Shown here: piece after piece, positions 5,448 to 59,183 of the stretch | Layout: each line of letters starts with the position of its first letter | How positions within the stretch are numbered: position 1 is the stretch's first letter | Translations under genes and position numbers: made by a program | From: Stomorhina lunata | Lineage: Eukaryota > Arthropoda > Insecta > Diptera > Rhiniidae | Assembly (NCBI GenBank): GCA_933228675.1 | Contig: OW121740.1 | Location: 130,107,799 to 130,171,798, forward strand | Direction: 5' to 3' | Length of the DNA stretch: 64,000 nt | Notes under the pieces: generated by a model | Database searches by the model: none | Seen by the model: only the letters and a program-made list of their open reading frames with translations | Told to the model about the DNA's origin: nothing

Positions 5448-7690
5448 TATACCCTTCAACACCATAGGTGGAAAGGGTATTATAAGTTTGTGCTGATGCA
5501 TGTAAAGCATAGAAATATTTGTCTTAGACCCACCTTTTAGTATACCAATAGGCTTAGAATCACTTTCTGAGTCGATTTAGCGATGTCAGTCCTTCCGTCC
5601 GTCTGGCTGGCTGGACCCCCATGAAAACCATGTAATCAAAGTACAGTAATTTGATGAAATTTGGCGCGGATAATTTTTTTGATAGTGGGACCATGGTTAT
5701 TGAAATATTTATGGTACCTCCCATAGGTCCCACTTCCCGAAATCGATATATTGACCACAATATTTTTTCATGAAATTTAAAGCGAATCCTGCTCATGTAA
5801 AATAAAATCACTGTACCAAATTTCGTTGAAATCGGTCCACATTTGACCATAGCTCCCATACAACCTCTTCTATCAAAACGCACTAAATGAGACAAAATCA
5901 CTAAAACGCTCGTAAATCTGATGATAATGAGAATTTTAACTTTATTTTTTGCATACATAATTTTTGTAATAACTGTAATCAAGGTGCCAAATTTCGAGAT
6001 AATCGGTCCACATTTTACCATAGCTCTCATATAAGTCCAAATGACGGAAACAGCTTAAATATATATATGTTTTGAGAAAATGTTTGTATGATGGCAAAAT
6101 TTAGAAAATATTTGTCTTTGTACAGGAAAAAGAACACCTTTGACCTTAGTGATGAAGGGTATCGTATGGTCGGGCTTGATCGACTATAGCATTTTCTTAC
6201 TTGTTGTATTATATAAATTTGAACAAGCTGTACCGTTAATAGTGCGCTACCATCAAGCAAGCTTGATAAATGTTATGGATACTCTGCCACATTCTATTTC
6301 ATTGTAAAAAAGGAGAAGCTATATGCATCTGACATGGCTCAGTCGTATTAATTTTGACTGATAACTTAGTTAAGAGAAAGCTTTCTGCAAGATGGCTGCC
6401 TCATTTGCTCATAATCAAGTACAAACGAATTTCATAAAAATTTTGGCGTTGTTCAAAAGTAATACAAGTTTTAGCACCGCTGACGTGGATCAACAACAAA
6501 ACACTCGAGACGAAACAGTGCATTTGTCGGAATGAATCGGTGGTAAGACCGCATTTGGACAAGAAATAAGTCATTTTTCAAAAGTAATTTTTCAAAAAGC
6601 TACTACAAATTTTCCAAATTTTCGTAAACTCTTGATAGTACGGTCAGGTTTGCTCAATTTTAATTCTGTCAGTTTTTTCTCATACAAATTCAAGACTTGA
6701 AATCGGTCCACATTTGACCATAGCTCCCATACAAACTCTTCTATCAAAACGCACTAAATGAGACAAAATCACTAAAACGCTCGTAAATCTGATGATAATG
6801 AGAATTTTTACTTTATTTTTTGCATACATAATTTTTGTAATAACTGTAATCAAGGTGCCAAATTTCGAGATAATCGGTCCACATTTTACCCTAGCTCTCA
6901 TATAAGTCCAAATGAAGGAAACAGCTTAAATATATATATGTTTTGAGAAAATGTTTGTATGATGGTAAAATTTAGCAAATATTTGTCTTTATACAGGAAA
7001 AAGAACACCTTTGACCTTAGTGATGAAGGGTATCGTATGGTCGGGCTTGATCGACTATAGCATTTTCTTACTTGTTTTATTATATAAATTTGAACAAGCT
7101 GTACCGTTAATAATGCGCTACCATCAAGCAAGCTTGATAAATGTTATGGATACTCTGCCACATTCTATTTCATTGTAAAAAAAGAGAAGCTATATACATC
7201 TGACATGGCTCAGTCGTATTAATTTTGACTGATAACTTAGTTAAGAGAAAGCTTTCTGCAAGATGGCTGCCTCATTTGCTCATAATCAAGTACAAACGAA
7301 TTTCATAAAAATTTTGGCGTTGTTCAAAAGTAATACAAGTTTTAGCAACGCTGACGTGGATCAACAACAAAACACTCGAGACGAAACAGTGCATTTGTCG
7401 GGATGAATCGGTGGTAAGACCGCATTTGGACAAGAAAAAAGTCATTTTTCAAAAGTAATTTTTCAAAAAGCTACTACAAATTTTCCAAATTTTCGTAAAC
7501 TCTTGATAGTACGGTCAGGTTTGCTCAATTTTAATTCTGTCAGTTTTTTCTCATACAAATTCAAGACTTGATAAGCCAAACCTGACTATGTAAAAGTAGA
7601 CAAAATATTATTTTGACAATGTATGCCGCAACCAACGGTTAAGGGTATTATATAATCGGGCTTGACTGATACTAATACTTTCTCATTTAT
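5448..7690 (+). repeat. R150 repeat copy B, composite with an 871-bp tandem duplication
   Basis: This starts like copy A and carries the same CGGTCCACATTTGACC blocks. An 871-bp segment at 5829-6699 is followed directly by a near-identical second copy at 6700-7570; both end in CAAGACTTGA. Each unit contains the right half of an R150 element plus about 490 bp of other sequence, part of which (TACGGTCAGGTTTGCTC and neighbours) also occurs in a MITE at 21.9-22.5 kb. The few differences between units suggest a recent duplication. No real gene is inside. Confidence 0.85.
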
Positions 7691-22663: not shown

Positions 22664-24270
22664 TAATTCACAATAATATATAAAAGCCACATAGGTCAAT
22701 TAACATATATTACAAAGATTTAATCCTGACTAAAACTAATACTTTTAAAAATAAATCATATTCTCATTCTATATCAAAATACATATCTTAATAAATGTAT
22801 TCATAGGCTCCCCAGCCACAAAAAAAAGATTTAAAAAAAAAAAAATTTAGTATATATAAATAATCCCATAAGTAGTAGAGAATATATTAGCAAAATAAGC
22901 TCTATAGAATAACCAATGCAAAATTTAGAAGAACAGGTAAGATCAATGAGTATATATAGAGAAGAAAATCATCAGTGAAGGGACAAATATCTCAAAAGTT
23001 TTAGGCGAAACACATTGTTGGAATGGGAAAATAAACGAAGTTCACGGGGTAAAGTATTCCAAGAGCGCGCTACTCTAATAAGAAAAGAACGCCCGAAAAT
23101 TGAACATCTTATTCTCGGAATTAAAATCTGCGAATTTCTTCTAGAACGAGAAAAGATAAACTCAGAGCGTAAATGAGTAGGCATACCCATTTTAATAACC
23201 TTAAAAAACATAATCAAGTTTCGTGAATCAATAAAGTTCTTAAAATAAGTACCTAAGAAATCCTCAACATATGGTGAAATATGCGCTCGTCCACGAACTT
23301 TAAATACATAACGAACAATAATATGAACAATACGTCTAAGTTTAGAGATGTTGTATTCCAAAGTGCCACTAAATACCTCCAAGCCATACATAATATGAGA
23401 CATCAAGAGCGAAAATGCAATAATATATCGATTACGTCTAGGTAAATAAACACCAATAGAATAAAGTCTACGAAGGATGCCAATAATTCTGGAGCTAAGT
23501 CTATCAATATGATAATCAAACGTAAGTTTTCTATCAAGGATTAGTCCCAAACACTCAATTTTATCATCAAAATCAACCCTAGTGCCAGAAACACAAATCC
23601 TTAAGTTAGGTAGGTTAGCATTACCAAACAACATCGCTTTGGTTTTAGATGAATTTACCGACAGACAATTATCAGAGGACCATTGAAGAAATCGTCCTAT
23701 TGAAAAATCAATATTCGACTGCAAAACATCAACATTATCAATATTAGTTCGGAACAATAACAAAACATCATCTGCAAATAAAAAGGTTTTACAAACTGTG
23801 GTACCAATACAATCAGGAAGATCATTAATATACAAAATGAAAAGTAGAGGTCCTAGGACTGAGCCCTGAGGAACGCCAGACGAAAGGGGAAGCAACGCCG
23901 AATGTGTACCTCCAATATCAACAAACTGCAACCTCTCACATAAGTAGGAAAAAATGAGTTTGCAAGCCGAACTAGAAAAATCAAATAACCTTTTAAGCTT
24001 CCTTACAAGTACACAAAAATTCACTGAGTTAAAAGCCTTTGCCAAATCCATTGATACCAAAGCCGCAAAATTACCATTATTTAAACTCTCACGTACACCA
24101 TCAGTCAAATTAAGCAACAGTGATGTTGTGCTATGGCCACGACGGAATGCATACTGAGACGAAGAAATCCGATTACTAACATAGAGAAGAATCTGATCTT
24201 TCATTATATGCTCAACAACCTTAGATAGAGATGGAAGAATAGAAATAGGACGTAAATCATTCATACTTTG
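22615..24270 (-). mobile_element. 5'-truncated LINE with (AAAT)n tail and an open reverse transcriptase frame
   Basis: On the minus strand the element runs from an abrupt 5' truncation near 24270 through reverse transcriptase to a 3' UTR (22971-22665) and a 12-fold AAAT-type tail at 22617-22664. No second target duplication could be fixed by eye. The frame downstream of the truncation has no stop until 22972, which points to a young insertion. Confidence 0.85.
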
Positions 24271-24306
24271 TTTAAAGTGCAAACACAAAAGGCGCTGCAA
24301 AGTCAA
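22972..24306 (-). CDS. Reverse transcriptase (C-terminal part) of the LINE
   Basis: 444 codons without a stop; the first ~10 residues probably come from flanking DNA. RT blocks in order: MNDLRPISILPSLSKVVEHIM, the region around SSQYAFRRGHSTTSLLL, VSMDLAKAFNSVNF, LSSGVPQGSVLGPLLFILYI, TFLFADDVLLLF (catalytic FADD) and LSVNSSKTKAMLFG, then the thumb and the C-terminal tail with FKVRGRAHISPY. The N-terminal endonuclease and RT block 0 are missing. The style is that of the Jockey/CR1-like LINEs; I do not claim a clade. It cannot move on its own. Confidence 0.85.
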   Translation of the reverse strand: MTLQRLLCLHFKQSMNDLRPISILPSLSKVVEHIMKDQILLYVSNRISSSQYAFRRGHSTTSLLLNLTDGVRESLNNGNFAALVSMDLAKAFNSVNFCVLVRKLKRLFDFSSSACKLIFSYLCERLQFVDIGGTHSALLPLSSGVPQGSVLGPLLFILYINDLPDCIGTTVCKTFLFADDVLLLFRTNIDNVDVLQSNIDFSIGRFLQWSSDNCLSVNSSKTKAMLFGNANLPNLRICVSGTRVDFDDKIECLGLILDRKLTFDYHIDRLSSRIIGILRRLYSIGVYLPRRNRYIIAFSLLMSHIMYGLEVFSGTLEYNISKLRRIVHIIVRYVFKVRGRAHISPYVEDFLGTYFKNFIDSRNLIMFFKVIKMGMPTHLRSEFIFSRSRRNSQILIPRIRCSIFGRSFLIRVARSWNTLPRELRLFSHSNNVFRLKLLRYLSLH

Positions 24307-24873
24307 ACTTACACATAATTTTATTCTTGTCTTTTGAAAACAGATTTTTTAACATCTGATGTTGTTAATGACAATGTTATCAATTTCATATAATTTGGTT
24401 TGTTGGGTTAACAGAGAAAAAAAGCGTCAAAGCGATTTTTAATCAAAACAAAATTGTGTAGCACCCCTGGAGCCATTGAACATTTGACAAACTTCATTTT
24501 TAGGGGATGAAAAACGACTGACAGTAAATGAAAAGAAAAAAGTGCAGTGTGAAGTTTTTTCGGTGAAAGATTTAACAAAAATGTAAAATATTTAACAAAA
24601 ATCATAATTGTAAAAGAAATAGTTGTATAAAAAACGGTCCTAGCAATATAATATATATGTAAAATACGCAATATTGCAATTTTAATGCGGTTTATAGTGA
24701 TAAATAAAGAAGTAATATAAAACTAAATAAATGGAAGAAGGGGGTGAATAGATTTTTTTCGTGTCTCCAAACAAGTAATTTTTGTGCTGAAATTTTGAAA
24801 GTATAAGGGGGTTTCGAATTGTAAACTACCCCTGAAAAATAATTTTTAAAGTTTCCCCCCTTGAGGTAATCCG
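24271..24873. other. Upstream flank of spastin
   Basis: AT-rich DNA between the LINE and the spastin start. It should contain the spastin promoter and 5' UTR. No motif could be assigned. Confidence 0.35.
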
Positions 24874-36908: not shown

Positions 36909-37818
36909 TATACCCTTTACCACCATAGGTGGAAAGGGTTTTATAAGTTTGTGCTGATGTATGTAACGCATACAAATATTTGTCTTAGATCAATAGGCTT
37001 AGAATCACTTTCTGAGTCGATTTAGCGATGTCACCATGGCTATTCAAAATCGGTCTATTATTTATGATACCTCCCATAGATCCCACTTCCCGGAATTGAT
37101 ATATTGGACGCAAATATCAATATTTCATATATTCAATATATTCATGAAATTTAAAACAAATACTGCTTATGTAAAGTTAAATCACTATACCAAATTTCGT
37201 TGAAATCGGTCAACATTTGACTATAGCTCCCATACAAACTCTTCTTTAAAAATGCACTGAGACAAAAATCACTAAAACGTTAGTAAATCTGAAAATAATG
37301 AGAATTTTGAGTTGATTTTTTGCATACATAATTTTTGTAAAAACTGTTATCAATTTGCCAAATTTCGAGATAATCGGTGCCCATTTGACCCTAGCTCTCA
37401 TATGAGTCCAAATGACGGAAAAAGCTTAAATACATAATCACATTGAAATCGGTCCACATTTGACCATAGCTTCCATACAAAGTCTTGTTTAAAAATGCAC
37501 TAAATGAGACAAAAATCACTAAAACGCTGGTAAATCTGAAAATAATGAGAATTTTGAGTTGATTTTTTGCATACATAATTTTTGTAAAAACTGTAATCAA
37601 TTTGTCAAATTTCGAGATAATCGGTCCCCATTTGACCCTAGCTCTCATATGAGTCCAAATGACGGAAAAAGCTTAAAACCTACATAAGTTTTGAGAAAAT
37701 ATTTGTATTATGGCAAAATTTTACAAATATTTGTCTTTGTACAGAAAAAAGTACACCTTAATGGTGAAGGGTATCGCATGGTCGGGCTTGACCGACTATA
37801 GCACTTTCTTAATTGTTT
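36909..37818 (+). repeat. R150 repeat copy E, with a ~241-bp internal duplication
   Basis: The left end (TTTATACCCTTTACCACC) and right end (GACCGACTATAGCACTTTC) match copy A. The segment from GAAATCGGTC..ACATTTGAC to GACGGAAAAAGCTTAAA occurs twice in a row, at about 37200-37438 and 37441-37678, with small differences. Confidence 0.8.
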
Positions 37819-46633: not shown

Positions 46634-46641
46634 TTTCTAAT
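46634..46641. repeat. Left 8-bp target duplication of E3 copy 1
   Basis: TTTCTAAT, repeated exactly at 47749-47756 on the far side of the element. Confidence 0.85.
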
Positions 46642-47748
46642 CATGGCAAAAAAATTGTAAGGTATAACCGTTCTCTCTTACAAAAAAAATTTTTGAAGTA
46701 AATGCGAAATATTTGAAATATGTTTTTTGTAAACAATTATTAAAGTCGTTGCCACATGTGAGAAATGGGAATATTATTATCAGGAAATTTTTAACGTATA
46801 ATGTGTAATGTGTTGTAAACATTTCGTTAAAACTTATTTTATAAAGTTTAGCGGATCCTGCACAAGGAAAAGAAGACTTGAGACAATTCAATTTTGTCAT
46901 AATATATTTAAAGTATTTTTGTGTAACATATTTTTTTATAATTTATGTTACAGTTTCTTCATTTTCTTTTTGGGATTGAAAATTGTATTTTCACCAAAAT
47001 TTTATTTTAAAAACGTATCTTCAAATATGTTCTTATAGATAGATTTTGGTGTGATCTTTTATAGTATGAGAATTATGGGCTTTTTAATTTTCAAAAATTA
47101 TACGGCATAACTTTAGAAGTTTATATCCGATATAAACCGGTATATCAAACAAAAGCTACTGAAAGTATCATTCAAATGATATACATTCTTCCGATTTATA
47201 AAGATTAAGAGCTCATATACTCAAAACTTATTTTTACAACCGACTTTGGTTATAAAAATTAGCATATCTTAAAATAATATATACATAAGTATGGTCTTTT
47301 ATATAATGAATTTTATACAGGATATACTGGACTTTTATATAACATAAACTACTTAGCTCTAGCATATGTAGCGTGTTAGTTATGACAGCGTAAAATTTTA
47401 CTTTTATTGAGTTAGAGTTATATAAATGTACACATTTATATTATATATAAAATGTATATATATTTTTTGTCTACGTCTACAACGGTAGTCGGTAGTCGAG
47501 TGGCTATGTCGACGCTTAAAAAAATTATCTCTATTTGAATGAATCTATTCTAATTTTAACAGGTTGTAGCCCGTAGCCTGCAGTCGTGATTGTGTTTAGA
47601 GTTTAACAGCAAACAGAAACTGGGATTTTCAAAAGTAGTATGGTAGCATAATTTGAGAAAAGAAAATAATAATTCGATCAAACGTCAGAAAGTTAATATG
47701 GCTGACAAAAGAGAGAACGGTTATACCTTACTAATTTCTTTTATCATG
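46642..47748 (+). mobile_element. P-like non-autonomous element E3, copy 1 (1107 bp)
   Basis: Left end CATGGCAAAAAAATTGTAAG and right end, on the minus strand, CATGATAAAAGAAATTAG; both lead into TAAGGTATAACCGTTCTCTC. Flanked by TTTCTAAT on both sides. CATG ends, an AAGGT near position 20 and an 8-bp target duplication fit the P-element superfamily. It has no transposase and no convincing gene. A second copy of the same length and orientation lies at 57286-58392 in the cyclin C intron. In all stretches compared by eye the two look identical. Confidence 0.85.
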
Positions 47749-47756
47749 TTTCTAAT

Positions 47757-52570: not shown

Positions 52571-55500
52571 ATGGCTGGTAATTTTTGGCAAAGTTCCCAC
52601 TCCCAGCAATGGATATTAGATCGTCAAGATCTAATACGCGAACGCCAGTATGACCTGCAATTGCTTTCCGAAGAGGAGTATCAAAAAGTATTCATATTCT
52701 TTGCAAATGTCATACAAGTTTTGGGTGAACAATTAAAGCTACGGCAGCAGGTAATTGCCACCGCAACAGTTTATTTCAAACGTTTCTATGCTCGGAATTC
52801 ATTGAAGAATATTGATCCTCTACTACTGGCACCGACCTGTATACTGTTGGCATCTAAAGTTGAGGAATTTGGTGTGATCTCAAATTCAAGATTAATATCT
52901 ATTTGCCAATCTGTTATAAAGAGCAAGTTCAACTATGCTTACACACAAGACTTTCCCTATCGTACAAATCATATTTTAGAATGTGAATTTTATTTGTTGG
53001 AAAATTTAGATTGCTGCCTAATCGTGTATCAGCCTTATAGGCCATTGTTGCAGTTGGTTCAGGATATGGGACAAGAGGATCAATTACTGACACTAAGTTG
53101 GCGTATAGTTAATGATTCGTTGAGAACTGATGTTTGCTTGTTGTATCCACCATATCAGGTAAGTTTTTTGCATGTTTCTTCGTATATGTACATATGAGAG
53201 GTCGTGTCGAAAATATAACTAGCTCTTTTCGTTCCGGCTCTATCGTGCCGACAACATACAGACAGACGGACCTCGCTCAATCGTCTTCGAATTTCATACG
53301 GATTGAGAATATACAGGTATGTGATGGATGTTTTTCGTTTTCAAATCGATCGATTTCAGGCATATTTTTTTAGCTAATTTTCGGTTATTTCCCCCAAAAA
53401 TGAAATTTTAAAAATTTTAGCTTTAATCCTTTTGACTGATATTTTATCTTTCATATTGGTTTGAATTTTTTGGGAAAATAACCGAAAATTATCTCAAAAA
53501 TATATCTAAAATCGATCGATTTGAAAACGATCGTTTTCCATCACATACCTGATACATTCATTTTGGTTTTGGAGCCAATATCCTTGATATTACAAACGAA
53601 ATACAAAACTCCCAATTGATCATTTTATTTTTATTTTATTTTTATTTATTTCATTTTTGTAATATTCAAAGCCACATTTGGCCAATTATACTAATATCAA
53701 GGCATATATATTGAAGGTAATTTCACTTGCTTTCATTAAATTTTAATAAGGGTTTTTGAAGTTTGTCTTTCTACGTCATATGAAATATAACGTTACCACA
53801 TTTTAAAAAAGTATTTTCTTTTTTTTGGAATTTTTTTTATAAAATGTGTAATGTGTACAATATAAATTATACATGATCAAAAGCTACTAAAATAAAAACA
53901 GTGTATTTTCTCCCGAAGAATCTCATTCTCGAAATTGCTCGATTTATCCAATAAAGTACTAAAGTACAACTGAAATACGCAAACAGAAATAAAAATACAT
54001 CGGATACAAACTGAATCAAGTGGAAAACCGAAGCCAAGCAGACTCATAGGAGAAATACTTTCCGCTGCGCGGGAAGTGTATTTGCATTTATAACAAAACA
54101 TACATTATTTTATTGTCTCCAGTTAATTGACATTAAAATTTAAGACCCAATTACAGATTATTTAAATGAATTATATAATTTAGTTTATAATAGAATGATA
54201 AATTAGCGATATTTAATTCAATCACTTTCACTTGACAAAGTTTGGATTTTTCTTTAAAATAAAGCATTCCATAATTGGTGTTAATGCTATATGTTCTTCT
54301 GAAGCCAATTCGGCATGTTCTCACATAGCCAAAAGTACGGGTGTTGTATGTGTTTGGAAACCGGTAATAGTCATGGATTTTCCAGCTTGTCCCACAATAT
54401 CAATGACTGTACCAACGCGCACCGGCACTTGCAATAGCGCAACAGATTTGCCAAACGAACGGTAAGCAATCTAAGCACCAATAGGCACAGATATCTGCCA
54501 ATAAAAATAATAATGGCAAGATTCGAGCCGGCATATGGAGCAGTATACTTAACTGCTAAGGCGAACGTATTCTTTCTGGCACTTTAAACCGGTACACTTA
54601 TTTAACTGTTTATAAATAGGCCAACTGGTTTGCGCCCATTTGATATATGGCATAGACCGATAGATGTGGCCCAATTTTTCCAGCTTTAAACCTCTATATT
54701 GGCACAAATCCCACTAATTTGTATTTTACCATCTTATAGAAAAGAACTTTCATCAGCAGCAGAACTATTACAACAACCTTTCTGTAAAAATATAAAATAT
54801 TATTTATATTTTTTCTATTTTAATAATTTTTTACCTTTATATTTATCAAATTATATTTATATTTTCAAAATTTCAAAATTAATTTGTAAAACTTCAAATG
54901 GTCCCTGCGACTACAATATCAGCTATTTGTTTTTTTCCTAAATACCTAGAACATCAACGTAGCTAATCAAAATTTTATTTAATGTGTATAGTAATTATAT
55001 ACTATCCCGCTTAGTTCTCTATTAACTAGTAAAATATAGTTTTAACTATTAGATATGAAGATACACATGCAATAAAATGTTTTTACATTTTTACACATAA
55101 CTCATATTGTCGGCGCAGCGACAGAAAATAATGGAAAACTTAAAATAATATGGTAGCTTTATTTCTATGGAAATGTCAGAACCCTTATAATTGTCAGAAA
55201 GTGAAATTAAATTTAGTAACCTGAAGTGAAATTACCTTCATTATAATCTACCTTGACTAATATTATACAATTAATACCAAGGTAGATTATAATGAAGGTA
55301 ATTTCACTTCAGGTTACTAAATTTAATTTCACTTTCTGACAATTATAAGGGTTCTGACATTTCCATAGAAATAAAGCTACCATATTATTTTAAGTTTTCC
55401 ATTATTTTCTGTCGCTGCGCCGACAATATGAGTTATGTGTAAAAATGTAAAAACATTTTATTGCATGTGTATCTTCATATCTAATAGTTAAACTATATTT

Positions 55501-58500
55501 TACTAGTTAATAGAGAACTAAGCGGGATAGTATATAATTATTATACACATTAAATAAAATTTTGATTAGCTACGTTGATGTTCTAGGTATTTAGGAAAAA
55601 AACAAATAGCTGATATTGTAGTCGCAGGGACCATTTGAAGTTTTATAAATTAATTTTGAAATTTTGAAAATATAAATATAATTTGATAAATATAAAGGTA
55701 AAAAATTATTAAAATAGAAAAAATATAAATAATATTTTATATTTTTACAGAAAGGTTGTTGTAATAGTTCTGCTGCTGATGAAAGTTCTTTTCTATAAGA
55801 TGGTAAAATACAAATTAGTGGGATTTGTGCCAATATAGAGGTTTAAAGCTGGAAAAATTGGGCCACATCTATCGGTCTATGCCATATATCAAATGGGCGC
55901 AAACCAGTTGGCCTATTTATAAACAGTTAAATAAGTGTACCGGTTTAAAGTGCCAGAAAGAATACGTTCGCCTTAGCAGTTAAGTATACTGCTCCATATG
56001 CCGGCTCGAATCTTGCCATTATTATTTTTATTGGCAGATATCTGTGCCTATTGGTGCTTAGATTGCTTACCGTTCGTTTGGAAAATCTGTTGCGCTATTG
56101 CAAGTGCCGGTGCGCGTTGGTACAGTCATTGATATTGTGGGACAAGCTGGAAAATCCATGACTATTACCGGTTTCCAAACACATACAACACCCGTACTTT
56201 TGGCTATGTGAGAACATGCCGAATTGGCTTCAGAAGAACACATAGCATTAACACCAATTATGGAATGCTTTATTTTAAAGAAAAATCCAAACTTTGTCAA
56301 GTGAAAGTGATTGAATTAAATATCGCTAATTTATCATTCTATTATAAACTAAATTATATAATTCATTTAAATAATCTGTAATTGGGTCTTAAATTGTAAT
56401 GTCAATTAACTGGAGACAATAAAATAATGTATGTTTTGTTATAAATGCAAATACCCTTCCCGCGCAGCGGAAAGGATTTCTCCTATGAGTCTGCTTGGCT
56501 TCGGTTTTCCACTTGATTCAGTTTGTATCCGATGTATTTTTATTTCTGTTTGCGTATTTCAGTTGTACTTTAGTACTTTATTGGATAAATCGAGCAATTT
56601 CGAGAATGAGATTCTTCGGGAGAAAATACGCTGTTTTTATTTTAGTAGCTTTTGATCATGTATAATTTATATTGTACACATTACACATTTTATAAAAAAA
56701 AATTCCAAAAAAAAGAAAATACTTTTTTAAAATGTGGTAACGTTATATTTCATATGACGTAGAAAGACAAACTTCAAAAACCCTTATTAAAATTTAATGA
56801 AAGCAAGTGAAATTACCTTCAATATATATGCCTTGATTAATACCATGACTTAATAATTCTGAAGGTTGTTCCATTCTCTCTTTTTGTCGCCATGATAACT
56901 TTCTGACGTTTGTTAGGATAGTAAAAGTTTATGCTACCATATTTTTGCCGACAATCCCACTTTTCTAATATTTTATGATGACAAAATTTATGTAAATTTA
57001 TGCATAAAAAACTTACGAATATTTACGAAAAAGCTTCAATAAATAATCATACAATTTGTTCCAACTATATTTCTTTGATATTGAAGTCTTTATTATATGC
57101 TTAACTTCAAAATTACACATTTTTGATAACTAATCCCAATGTATTACGTACACCTTTTCTTAATATGGCAACATTTTTCTTTTAATTGTTTTCAAATATC
57201 AAACTTCAAAAACCCAATATACTTCAAAATAATTTTGAACAGAGAGAATGAAACTTCCTTGTTATTATTATTTCATGATTAATACCATGGCAAAAAAATT
57301 GTAAGGTATAACCGTTCTCTCTTACAAAAAAAATTTTTGAAGTAAATGCGAAATATTTGAAATATGTTTTTTGTAAACAATTATTAAAGTCGTTGCCACA
57401 TGTGAGAAATGGGAATATTATTATCAGGAAATTTTTAACGTATAATGTGTAATGTGTTGTAAACATTTCGTTAAAACTTATTTTATAAAGTTTAGCGGAT
57501 CCTGCACAAGGAAAAGAAGACTTGAGACAATTCAATTTTGTCATAATATATTTAAAGTATTTTTGTGTAACATATTTTTTTATAATTTATGTTACAGTTT
57601 CTTCATTTTCTTTTTGGGATTGAAAATTGTATTTTCACCAAAATTTTATTTTAAAAACGTATCTTCAAATATGTTCTTATAGATAGATTTTGGTGTGATC
57701 TTTTATAGTATGAGAATTATGGGCTTTTTAATTTTCAAAAATTATACGGCATAACTTTAGAAGTTTATATCCGATATAAACCGGTATATCAAACAAAAGC
57801 TACTGAAAGTATCATTCAAATGATATACATTCTTCCGATTTATAAAGATTAAGAGCTCATATACTCAAAACTTATTTTTACAACCGACTTTGGTTATAAA
57901 AATTAGCATATCTTAAAATAATATATACATAAGTATGGTCTTTTATATAATGAATTTTATACAGGATATACTGGACTTTTATATAACATAAACTACTTAG
58001 CTCTAGCATATGTAGCGTGTTAGTTATGACAGCGTAAAATTTTACTTTTATTGAGTTAGAGTTATATAAATGTACACATTTATATTATATATAAAATGTA
58101 TATATATTTTTTGTCTACGTCTACAACGGTAGTCGGTAGTCGAGTGGCTATGTCGACGCTTAAAAAAATTATCTCTATTTGAATGAATCTATTCTAATTT
58201 TAACAGGTTGTAGCCCGTAGCCTGCAGTCGTGATTGTGTTTAGAGTTTAACAGCAAACAGAAACTGGGATTTTCAAAAGTAGTATGGTAGCATAATTTGA
58301 GAAAAGAAAATAATAATTCGATCAAACGTCAGAAAGTTAATATGGCTGACAAAAGAGAGAACGGTTATACCTTACTAATTTCTTTTATCATGATTAATAC
58401 TGAATATTACAGAGATTACAAATTCATATGCCATAAAATATGTTTATACATTAATTCATAAATATTATTAATTAAATATTGAAAAACAATCTAGAAACTA

Positions 58501-59183
58501 TGGTCCCCCAACCAAAAAGTAATAAAATATTACTGCAATGTAGTATAATACAATTTTTTAAAAATAAGTCCATGTAAGCTTTTTTTTTTAGGAACATTAG
58601 AGTTATTATCAGATTATTATTGTTTAAGAATCATGCCAGAATTACTTAATCTGGTTCTGATCTGGTCCTATCTGTCAGGGCTTTAAGTTACCTGATTATT
58701 TAGCTATCAAAAAAGTCAACAGCAGACATTAAGGGGTTCAATTTGATACTTTTTAATATTTGTAGCTGTAATTATTTAACACACAAGTTTTTGTTTTAAA
58801 ATTGTATCCATTACGAAATTAAAATTCAGTCCCGCAAAGCGAAATGGCGTTTTAATGTATGTATGTATATATTATTATGTTCATAATGGGAGGAATAGGA
58901 AAAGAGAGAAACTTCTTGAAATTAATATTTACGTTTGAGATAACTATTAATATTATTTTCATTACAGATTGCTATTGCCTGTTTACAAATTGCCTGCGTT
59001 ATATTGCAAAAAGATTCCATGAAGCAATGGTTCGCCGAACTTAATGTCGACCTAGATAAAGTTCAAGAAATAGTGCGTGCAATCGTAAATCTATTCGAAT
59101 TATGGAAGGATTGGAAGGAAAAAGATGAAATACAAATGTTATTGTCTAAAATTCCTAAACCAAAGCCAGCCCCGCAACGTTAA
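52571..59183 (+). CDS. CycC: Cyclin C, Mediator kinase module subunit
   Basis: Two exons, 52571-53158 (196 codons) and 58968-59183 (71 residues plus stop), give 267 residues, equal to Drosophila cyclin C. Cyclin C activates Cdk8 in the kinase module of Mediator and so tunes RNA polymerase II transcription. The N-terminal helix [18 protein letters not shown] is diagnostic. The first cyclin fold holds [19 protein letters not shown] and [15 protein letters not shown], and the second has [17 protein letters not shown] and [22 protein letters not shown]. The end is conserved ([13 protein letters not shown]). An in-frame Met 24 bases upstream (52547) exists, but MAGNF is the family start. The donor is CAG|GTAAGT and the acceptor ATTACAG, and the phase is zero. 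The 5809-bp intron is mostly transposons. It converges with GPALPP1, with 145 bp between the stops. Confidence 0.97.
53311..53554. mobile_element. Foldback MITE in the cyclin C intron
   Basis: The outer ends CAGGTATGTGATGGA (53314) and TCCATCACATACCTG (to 53551) are perfect inverted repeats. Similarity continues inward for about 80 bp on each side through AAATCGATCGATTT and AATTTTCGGTTATTT. The 238-bp body has the trinucleotide ATA on both sides, a possible 3-bp target duplication. No coding capacity. Confidence 0.8.
53690..53697. repeat. Left target duplication of E1 left copy
   Basis: ACTAATAT, repeated exactly at 55256-55263. Confidence 0.85.
53698..55255 (-). mobile_element. P-like element E1, left copy (1558 bp)
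   Basis: The ends are CAAGGCATATATATTGAAGG and, inverted, CAAGGTAGATTATAATGAAG; both continue GTAATTTCACTT. Flanked by ACTAATAT on both sides. It is the inverse of the right copy at 55278-56835, has the same length, and differs by a few bases and two compensating 1-base indels in homopolymers. The AAGGT at positions 17-21 matches the place of AAGGT in the P-element terminal repeat. Inside, on the minus strand, is a fragment of Rpn1 (54228-54431). Confidence 0.85.
54228..54431 (-). pseudogene. Captured Rpn1 (26S proteasome) C-terminal fragment in E1 left copy
   Basis: This is the mirror image of the fragment at 56101-56304 and gives the same reading, with one or two substitutions. See that entry for the match. 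The frame contains an internal TGA, and nothing shows that it is expressed. Confidence 0.75.
55256..55277. repeat. 22-bp spacer between inverted E1 copies: two target octamers
   Basis: It consists of ACTAATAT (right target duplication of the left copy), TATACA, then ATTAATAC (left target duplication of the right copy). Two different octamers show two separate insertions only 6 bp apart. Confidence 0.85.
55278..56835 (+). mobile_element. P-like element E1, right copy (1558 bp)
   Basis: The same element as 53698-55255 in the opposite orientation, with ends CAAGGTAGATTAT... and ...ATATATATGCCTTG. It is flanked by ATTAATAC at 55270-55277 and 56836-56843. From its left end, CTTTCTGAC begins 54 bp in and GCTACCATA 98 bp in; the same two blocks at similar distances occur in E2 and E3. 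It carries the Rpn1 fragment in plus orientation and no transposase. Confidence 0.85.
56101..56304 (+). pseudogene. Captured Rpn1/PSMD2 C-terminal fragment in E1 right copy
   Basis: The frame reads [35 protein letters not shown], stop, [30 protein letters not shown] and a final stop. This matches the last ~65 residues of the proteasome subunit Rpn1/PSMD2 (known pattern: VRVGxx[46 protein letters not shown]). A TGA at 56209-56211 stands where Rpn1 has a sense codon, so it is not an intact coding end. The fragment ends at the natural stop of the gene, as expected for a piece of the last exon taken from genomic DNA or cDNA. The full Rpn1 gene is not in this window. Confidence 0.8.
56836..56843. 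repeat. Shared ATTAATAC octamer between E1 and E2
   Basis: Right target duplication of E1 and left one of E2. The same octamer stands at 55270, 57278 and 58393. Confidence 0.85.
56844..57277 (+). mobile_element. P-like MITE E2 (434 bp)
   Basis: Left end CATGACTTAATAATTCTG and inverted right end CATGAAATAATAATAAC; both lead to an AAGG block and CATTCTCTC. ATTAATAC is on both sides. The left subterminal part (CTTTCTGACGTTTG 55 bp in, ATGCTACCATA) matches the right end of E3, and the right part (GGGTTTTTGAAGTTTG on the minus strand) matches the outer end of E1, so the three elements are relatives. No coding capacity. Confidence 0.85.
57278..57285. repeat. Shared ATTAATAC octamer between E2 and E3
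   Basis: Right target duplication of E2 and left one of E3 copy 2. Confidence 0.85.
57286..58392 (+). mobile_element. P-like non-autonomous element E3, copy 2 (1107 bp)
   Basis: The same length and ends as copy 1 at 46642-47748. ATTAATAC is on both sides (57278-57285 and 58393-58400), so it is a separate insertion from copy 1, whose target was TTTCTAAT. No transposase is encoded. A shared source enzyme elsewhere in the genome is implied. Confidence 0.85.
58401..58967. other. Distal part of the cyclin C intron
   Basis: The remaining intron between E3 and the acceptor at 58967. No repeat or gene is recognised. Confidence 0.45.

Follow-up and report, generated by a model that had tools for sequence, protein, structure and literature searches.

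How do transposable elements of different families come to stand end to end, with nothing between them but a single shared octamer? A 64,000-nucleotide stretch of the genome of the rhiniid fly Stomorhina lunata (assembly GCA_933228675.1, contig OW121740.1, positions 130,107,799 to 130,171,798 of the forward strand), referred to below as the window, carries three distinct P-like elements, E1, E2 and E3, in such an arrangement. How P elements choose their targets, and why they settle next to one another, are long-standing puzzles for which the answer is usually sought in chromatin and a weak sequence preference. Here, the anatomy of the window is considered together with genome-wide searches of the 728 Mb assembly, which comprises 104 contigs.

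Three elements joined by one octamer

The chain consists of three complete, distinct elements, each with its own inverted ends, set between four copies of the octamer ATTAATAC. The initial annotation had described both the elements and the four octamer positions, and all of these are confirmed as follows.

55270..55277, plus strand: octamer ATTAATAC, copy 1
55278..56835, plus strand: E1 right, a P-like element of 1558 bp with a piece of RPN1
56836..56843, plus strand: octamer ATTAATAC, copy 2
56844..57277, plus strand: E2, a short P-like non-autonomous element of 434 bp
57278..57285, plus strand: octamer ATTAATAC, copy 3
57286..58392, minus strand (orientation from its left-type end): E3, a P-like non-autonomous element of 1107 bp
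58393..58400, plus strand: octamer ATTAATAC, copy 4

Each of the three members starts with CA, finishes with TG and has imperfect inverted ends, and the direct repeat around each is exactly 8 bp and no longer. As a bare word ATTAATAC is not rare (seven occurrences in the window versus 8.27 expected); its presence at every element boundary is far from chance. When the window was scanned for CA...TG inverted ends enclosed by identical 8-bp repeats, five elements emerged: the three members of the chain, an inverted relative of E1 right (E1 left) and a second E3. Two more pairs with low scores (11.5 and 11.0) appeared once the repeat could contain one mismatch, and ten shuffled windows under this looser scan gave zero to two matches each with a top score of 15. 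The E1 and E3 copies (19-20.5) lie above that control. E2 scores 10.5, within the shuffled range, so its standing as an element rests on its copies elsewhere in the genome.

The two elements outside the chain are flanked by octamers of their own.

46634..46641: TTTCTAAT, duplicated target at the left border of the second E3
46642..47748, minus strand: second E3, which agrees with the first at all 1107 bp
47749..47756: TTTCTAAT, duplicated target at the right border of the second E3
53690..53697: ACTAATAT, duplicated target at the left border of E1 left
53698..55255, minus strand: E1 left, which is E1 right inverted apart from 8 mismatches and 2 gap columns
55256..55263: ACTAATAT, duplicated target at the right border of E1 left
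55264..55269: TATACA, six bases of target without duplication that separate two insertion registers

The identity of the two E3 copies ends exactly at the element borders. Because E1 left has ACTAATAT and the second E3 has TTTCTAAT, the octamer is target sequence and not element; the idea that it forms part of the elements is ruled out by these different octamers. The window scan found no element beside three further ATTAATAC sites (3117, 6345 and 7216), and ATTAATAC as a required site is ruled out by these empty sites together with the other octamers used genome-wide. The sites at 6345 and 7216 share the same repeated context, lie 871 bp apart and are not beside P-like ends.

Single-octamer chains across the genome

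Junctions joined by a single octamer, which the initial annotation had suggested looking for genome-wide, do occur. The best 40 of 684 first-look E2 candidates were scored, and 39 stretches, taking in every listed site outside the window, were read, which with the window gives 40 loci. At 36 of the 43 full E2 copies, diverse octamers form perfect 8-bp duplications. The window and the seven loci below, eight of the 40, are same-octamer chains of two to four elements, with the same octamer at every joint and at both outer flanks.

L019: octamer GTTGAAAT, joining E3 and E2
L024: four elements (E1-like, E2, an unnamed 778-bp element, E1-like) with five copies of GTTATAAC
L025: octamer GGATAGAT
L029: octamer GATAGAAC
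L035: octamer ATTTATAC, joining E3 and E2
L046: octamer ATTTTTCC
L047: octamer GTAAAAAG

Three further loci (L014, L015 and L044) have equal outer octamers and different inner ones, the pattern expected if a whole chain has moved as a unit. No such joint stands at the E2 copy in 27 of the 40, among them L011 with a one-base slip and the truncated L030, and L026 and L037 were placed in none of these classes. For E3, the best 40 of 2102 candidates were scored and 30 copies were sampled for their edges, the other ten comprising two window copies, one that had been read before, four that were partial and three left unsampled. A perfect 8-bp duplication flanks 22 of the 30. At L082-L085 (G000 C10:48879453-48880558 and C2:39696833-39697940), only 2 bp (GT or AC) apparently separate E3 copies from a CATG end of another element, perhaps the remnant of a deleted octamer.

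The spacing of junctions was then taken genome-wide from a scan for a TCATG end followed, after 0-30 bp, by an E2-type end, a count restricted to this one kind of neighbour end. The 76 matches amount to 63 distinct junctions, of which 37 are spaced by exactly 8 bp and carry 32 distinct octamers, while the other 30 spacings share the remaining 26; the pattern read backwards as a control gave 2+2 matches. The 8-bp joints are found on contigs C1, C2, C7, C10 and C11. Exact E2-type ends number 766 in the genome (reversed control, 79), and 49 of them stand at a TCATG 8-bp joint. The corresponding scan with E3 ends placed 7 of 15 matches at 8 bp and is not relied on, since the reversed pattern gave high counts (116 and 29), and an E3-to-E3 scan gave three matches with spacings of 8, 8 and 22 bp.

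A chain built on one octamer should repeat that octamer at the far edge of its E2-like member, and this was examined for 32 of the 49 8-bp matches, which amount to 26 joints; loci already read account for the remaining 17, at 11 joints. The far edge was identical to the joint octamer in 20 cases, differed by one mismatch in one and was different in three, while eight had no element end at the expected distance; the edge of L115 was judged by eye. The far flank thus repeats the joint octamer at 20 of 24 informative matches. That octamers might never be shared between elements outside the window, which would have spoken against the initial annotation, is contradicted by these far edges and by the 37 8-bp junctions.

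How a chain may grow

Chain anatomy suggests that the elements inserted one after another, each newcomer using exactly the octamer that the resident element had duplicated. Such precise insertion into an earlier element's duplicated target had been proposed from the window, and its recurrence across the genome with many octamers lends it strong support. The same proposal had allowed for an end-directed or a site-specific mode. An end-directed mode is favoured over strict site specificity, because many different octamers are used, the target consensus is weak and three ATTAATAC sites in the window are empty; sequence preference nevertheless plays a part. Judged from sequence, these chains are probably the product of end-directed insertion into the duplicated target, growing by successive insertions and helped by a good local target.

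In one form of this mechanism, the resident terminus, or a putative transposase sitting on it, would set the register, and the newcomer would be joined across the adjacent 8 bp. A second form, compatible with the first, is that a CATG terminus may itself supply two of the three flanking bases of the target consensus (ATG or CAT against ATA or TAT). The outermost ends may sometimes mobilise a finished chain as a whole, which then becomes a composite element. The broader proposal is of a P-type end-directed mode in which relatives from different families use the octamer next to a resident end as a landing pad that renews itself, and spacer-free chains then move as composites; the chances for and against it appear evenly balanced. 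If it is true, reuse of the octamer turns neighbouring elements into new composite elements, and the chains illustrate how composites can arise stepwise.

Several observations weigh against end-directed insertion. Some junctions have other spacings (2 bp, 22 bp and several more), and E3 is chained less often, with flush neighbours at 2 of the 30 sampled copies, one of which has unequal flanks. The E1 ends read CAAGG and CCTTG, so that the mimicry of the target by CATG cannot cover E1. The order of insertion is unreadable, the octamers being identical, and no one-element intermediates were seen among the loci read. The remaining points concern the target itself. Forty reconstructed sites (L011, L026, L030, L037 and the window's second E3 being left out) give a weak consensus, ATA-[GA]TTWWAA[CT]-TAT, with 2.7 bits over 14 bp and a symmetry that comes from strand pooling. 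Complementary pairs within single sites average 2.45 versus 2.59 in shuffled columns; with no excess there, a palindromic target beyond the symmetrised consensus is not supported. For the fruit-fly P element the target is given as the 14-bp palindrome ATRGTCCGGACWAT (PMC10299278). In a leave-one-out fit to the consensus, the eight chain sites average 4.4 bits versus 1.5 for the 32 others (one-sided p 0.012; a perfect site has log2 odds of 10.5), and this better fit indicates that site quality contributes to chains.

Weighing other origins

That better fit is also what would be expected if chains mark sequence hot spots, where an octamer and its flanks are hit several times independently and the resident element plays no role. 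The registers of E1 left and E1 right, only 14 bp apart, and the symmetrical octamer GTTATAAC of the longest chain read fit such an account as well. Yet two of the eight chain sites match the consensus poorly (-0.3 and 1.1 bits), the octamers are diverse and none of the window's three other ATTAATAC sites is occupied. With assumed numbers of 400 E2 copies and 10,000 other P-like elements, the used sites, whose mean odds are about 27-fold, would give rise to about 0.3 E2 joints, versus 37 found with one kind of neighbour end, so under these assumed copy numbers the joints exceed target preference more than 100-fold. A hot spot without a part for the resident element is therefore considered unlikely. 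Macrotransposition of a small number of ancestral composites might instead be the main way in which the chains spread, and some loci do carry traces of such movement: L014, L015 and L046 have the ATTTTTCC joint in common, the first two with their own matching outer octamers; L044 has matching outer octamers and a different inner one; and the joint ATTTCGAC is common to two loci with different outer flanks. In a composite that has moved, outer and inner octamers should differ, but 20 of the 24 informative far edges equal the joint, and 32 distinct octamers would need many separate origins. Macrotransposition stands as a second step, the far edges speaking against a role as the main source, which is improbable.

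Long near-perfect palindromes are a known problem for assembly, and E1 left and E1 right together form one, which raises the question of whether the palindrome or the chain is a product of misassembly. The E1 arms, however, differ at 10 columns, end exactly at the element borders and have different octamers, the 8-bp joints occur on five contigs and the window contains no N; an artefact is very improbable. Instead of fresh insertion, gap repair could in principle have been at work, or recombination between two alleles with different elements at one site, as the gaps left by P excision are repaired from templates, ectopic ones included (PMC1562414). An 8-bp homology would be very short for crossing over, gap repair would not be expected to duplicate the local octamer with each added element, and the joints are intact 8-mers in the window and at the informative far edges that repeat them, which leaves this origin scarcely credible. 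End-directed insertion at the duplicated octamer accordingly stays the favoured account of the chains.

P-like ends of E1, E2 and E3

An 8-bp target duplication, as is characteristic of the P superfamily, flanks all five copies in the window. Their ends share a layout in which a terminal CATG or CAAGG is followed by an AAGG block. A TTTCTGACGTTTG-type motif starts 49-66 bp inside all six ends (0-5 mismatches in 13 positions), and a GCTACCATAT-type motif starts at 90-107 bp (0-3 mismatches in 10); each was equalled in 0 of 2000 shuffles, a test that is partly post hoc as both motifs were picked by eye from the alignment. A free search for 10-mer motifs in the six ends was unconvincing, 14 of 200 shuffles being equally good. 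Left-type and right-type ends can be told apart, which places E1 right and E2 on the plus strand and E1 left and E3 on the minus strand. The right end of E3 is identical to the published fruit-fly P end CATGATGAAATAACATA (PMC4004357) at 13 of 17 positions (p 0.0067 given CATG), and the other five ends agree at 6-11 of 17, which is not significant given CATG. The core end of E3 had no match in viral contigs.

No transposase domain (THAP or Tnp_P_element) was found in the frames scanned with Pfam, namely six from E3, two from E2, two from whole E1 and parts of E1, and for this reason all three elements are taken as non-autonomous. This bars the term autonomous P element, and does not bar mobilisation by a P transposase. 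On the evidence of the ends and the 8-bp duplication, E1, E2 and E3 can fairly be labelled P-like and non-autonomous.

The E1 pair and its captured piece of RPN1

The 22 bp between E1 left and E1 right consist of 8+6+8 bp, that is, two octamers around the six unduplicated bases, and the two insertion registers are 14 bp apart. This offset equals the length of the P target, and a 22-bp gap between P-like ends, consistent with 8+6+8, is also found in an E3-E3 pair (G000 C1:84725124-84725166). The whole of 53698-56835 is a palindrome with 1558-bp arms, a 22-bp loop and a piece of the proteasome subunit gene RPN1 (PSMD2) in each arm, and could be a source of hairpin RNA.

56002..56301, plus strand: decayed homology to the C-terminal coding part of RPN1 (PSMD2) in E1 right, identified with Pfam PF18051, PDB RPN1, tblastn and the host gene
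54231..54458, minus strand: the same RPN1 piece in E1 left, identified with tblastn

The E1 piece matches Pfam RPN1_C at 8.7e-21 with its stop dropped, or 6.8e-22 with X at the stop, and RPN1 in the PDB at 1e-22. Its likely parent lies at C7:101290753-101290953 within a stop-free frame of 275 residues. E1 and the likely parent DNA are identical at 232 of 268 positions including 3' non-coding sequence, with a further 40 of 45 downstream, and exact matches between E1 and the RPN1 stretch that was read extend over at most 24 bp. Homology of E1 right to the host 3' non-coding DNA extends to about 56411. Since the identity spans 3' non-coding sequence, the capture included that part of the host gene. 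All 97 genome-wide candidates were scored and gave 87 matches to the piece, a count that includes the parent and a few side-by-side matches, so that not all need be E1; eight match at 100% of 66 residues, among them both window copies. Presumably through gap repair or a template switch to the host gene, E1 would have gained the piece at a time when neither of its window copies had yet inserted.

Both E1 copies have two of the features of Pack-TIR elements: a host gene piece lies within inverted ends and a target duplication, and the parent gene is elsewhere in the genome, on C7. As to copy number, there are two window copies with distinct duplications, and the 87 matches are counted as pieces, not as elements.

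Genomic setting

The entire array lies within an intron of cyclin C.

52571..53159, plus strand: first coding exon of cyclin C, with the splice donor at 53160
53160..58967, plus strand: cyclin C intron with GT...AG borders, containing the entire array; the next exon starts at 58968

The protein encoded by the exon at 52571-53159 has 99% amino-acid identity with cyclin C of Stomoxys and Cochliomyia, which points to a probable calyptrate host. The same intron holds a separate small fold-back repeat (53314-53405 and 53460-53551). Elsewhere in the window, a long reverse-transcriptase-like frame at 22972-24348 on the minus strand was judged by eye to belong probably to a retroelement without long terminal repeats, and 37200-37677 consists of two tandem copies of a 247-bp unit. 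No RNA genes were found in the window by ARAGORN or at Rfam gathering scores.

Comparison with known systems

Pack-TIR elements of animals resemble E1 in having inverted ends, target duplications and a host gene piece whose parent lies elsewhere. One survey lists 370 of them in 100 animal reference genomes, four of them multicopy and none in insects, along with a family from fly populations, Ssk-FB4 (PMC8277862). In contrast to the elements described there, E1 is P-like, resides in a fly and carries a piece with 87 matches. It is a natural P-like carrier, in a fly, of a host gene piece that is present in many copies, whereas the reference-genome survey (PMC8277862) records no such elements in insects.

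Among P-type elements, P-related miniature inverted-repeat transposable elements (P-MITEs) of Anopheles gambiae are similar to E1, E2 and E3 in being non-autonomous, with P-like ends, 8-bp duplications and unrelated interiors (PMC1562414). En-bloc movement of a tandem pair has been proposed for them, and the accessible portion of that paper does not describe single-octamer chains (PMC1562414); no autonomous P partner of the fly elements was identified. Full-text literature searches, whose coverage did not extend to the original singed, Hsp70 and target-site papers, did not turn up single-octamer chains composed of different P families.

A close precedent is the recurrent insertion of P at the same exact position in singed and in the Hsp70 promoter of Drosophila melanogaster, as related in PMC6415491 (citing Roiha 1988 and Shilova 2006), which resembles the present chains in that P-type elements reinsert at exactly the same position. 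Unlike those cases, the chains described here comprise two to four elements of different families on many unrelated octamers, with a sharp spike of spacings at 8 bp. The singed case was reportedly a double insertion. This genome offers single-octamer joints by the dozen, across many octamers and combinations of elements, and end-directed targeting thereby becomes directly testable. Compared with these precedents, what is new is that same-position insertion recurs genome-wide, mixes families, reaches four members and uses many octamers, with a peak at 8 bp.

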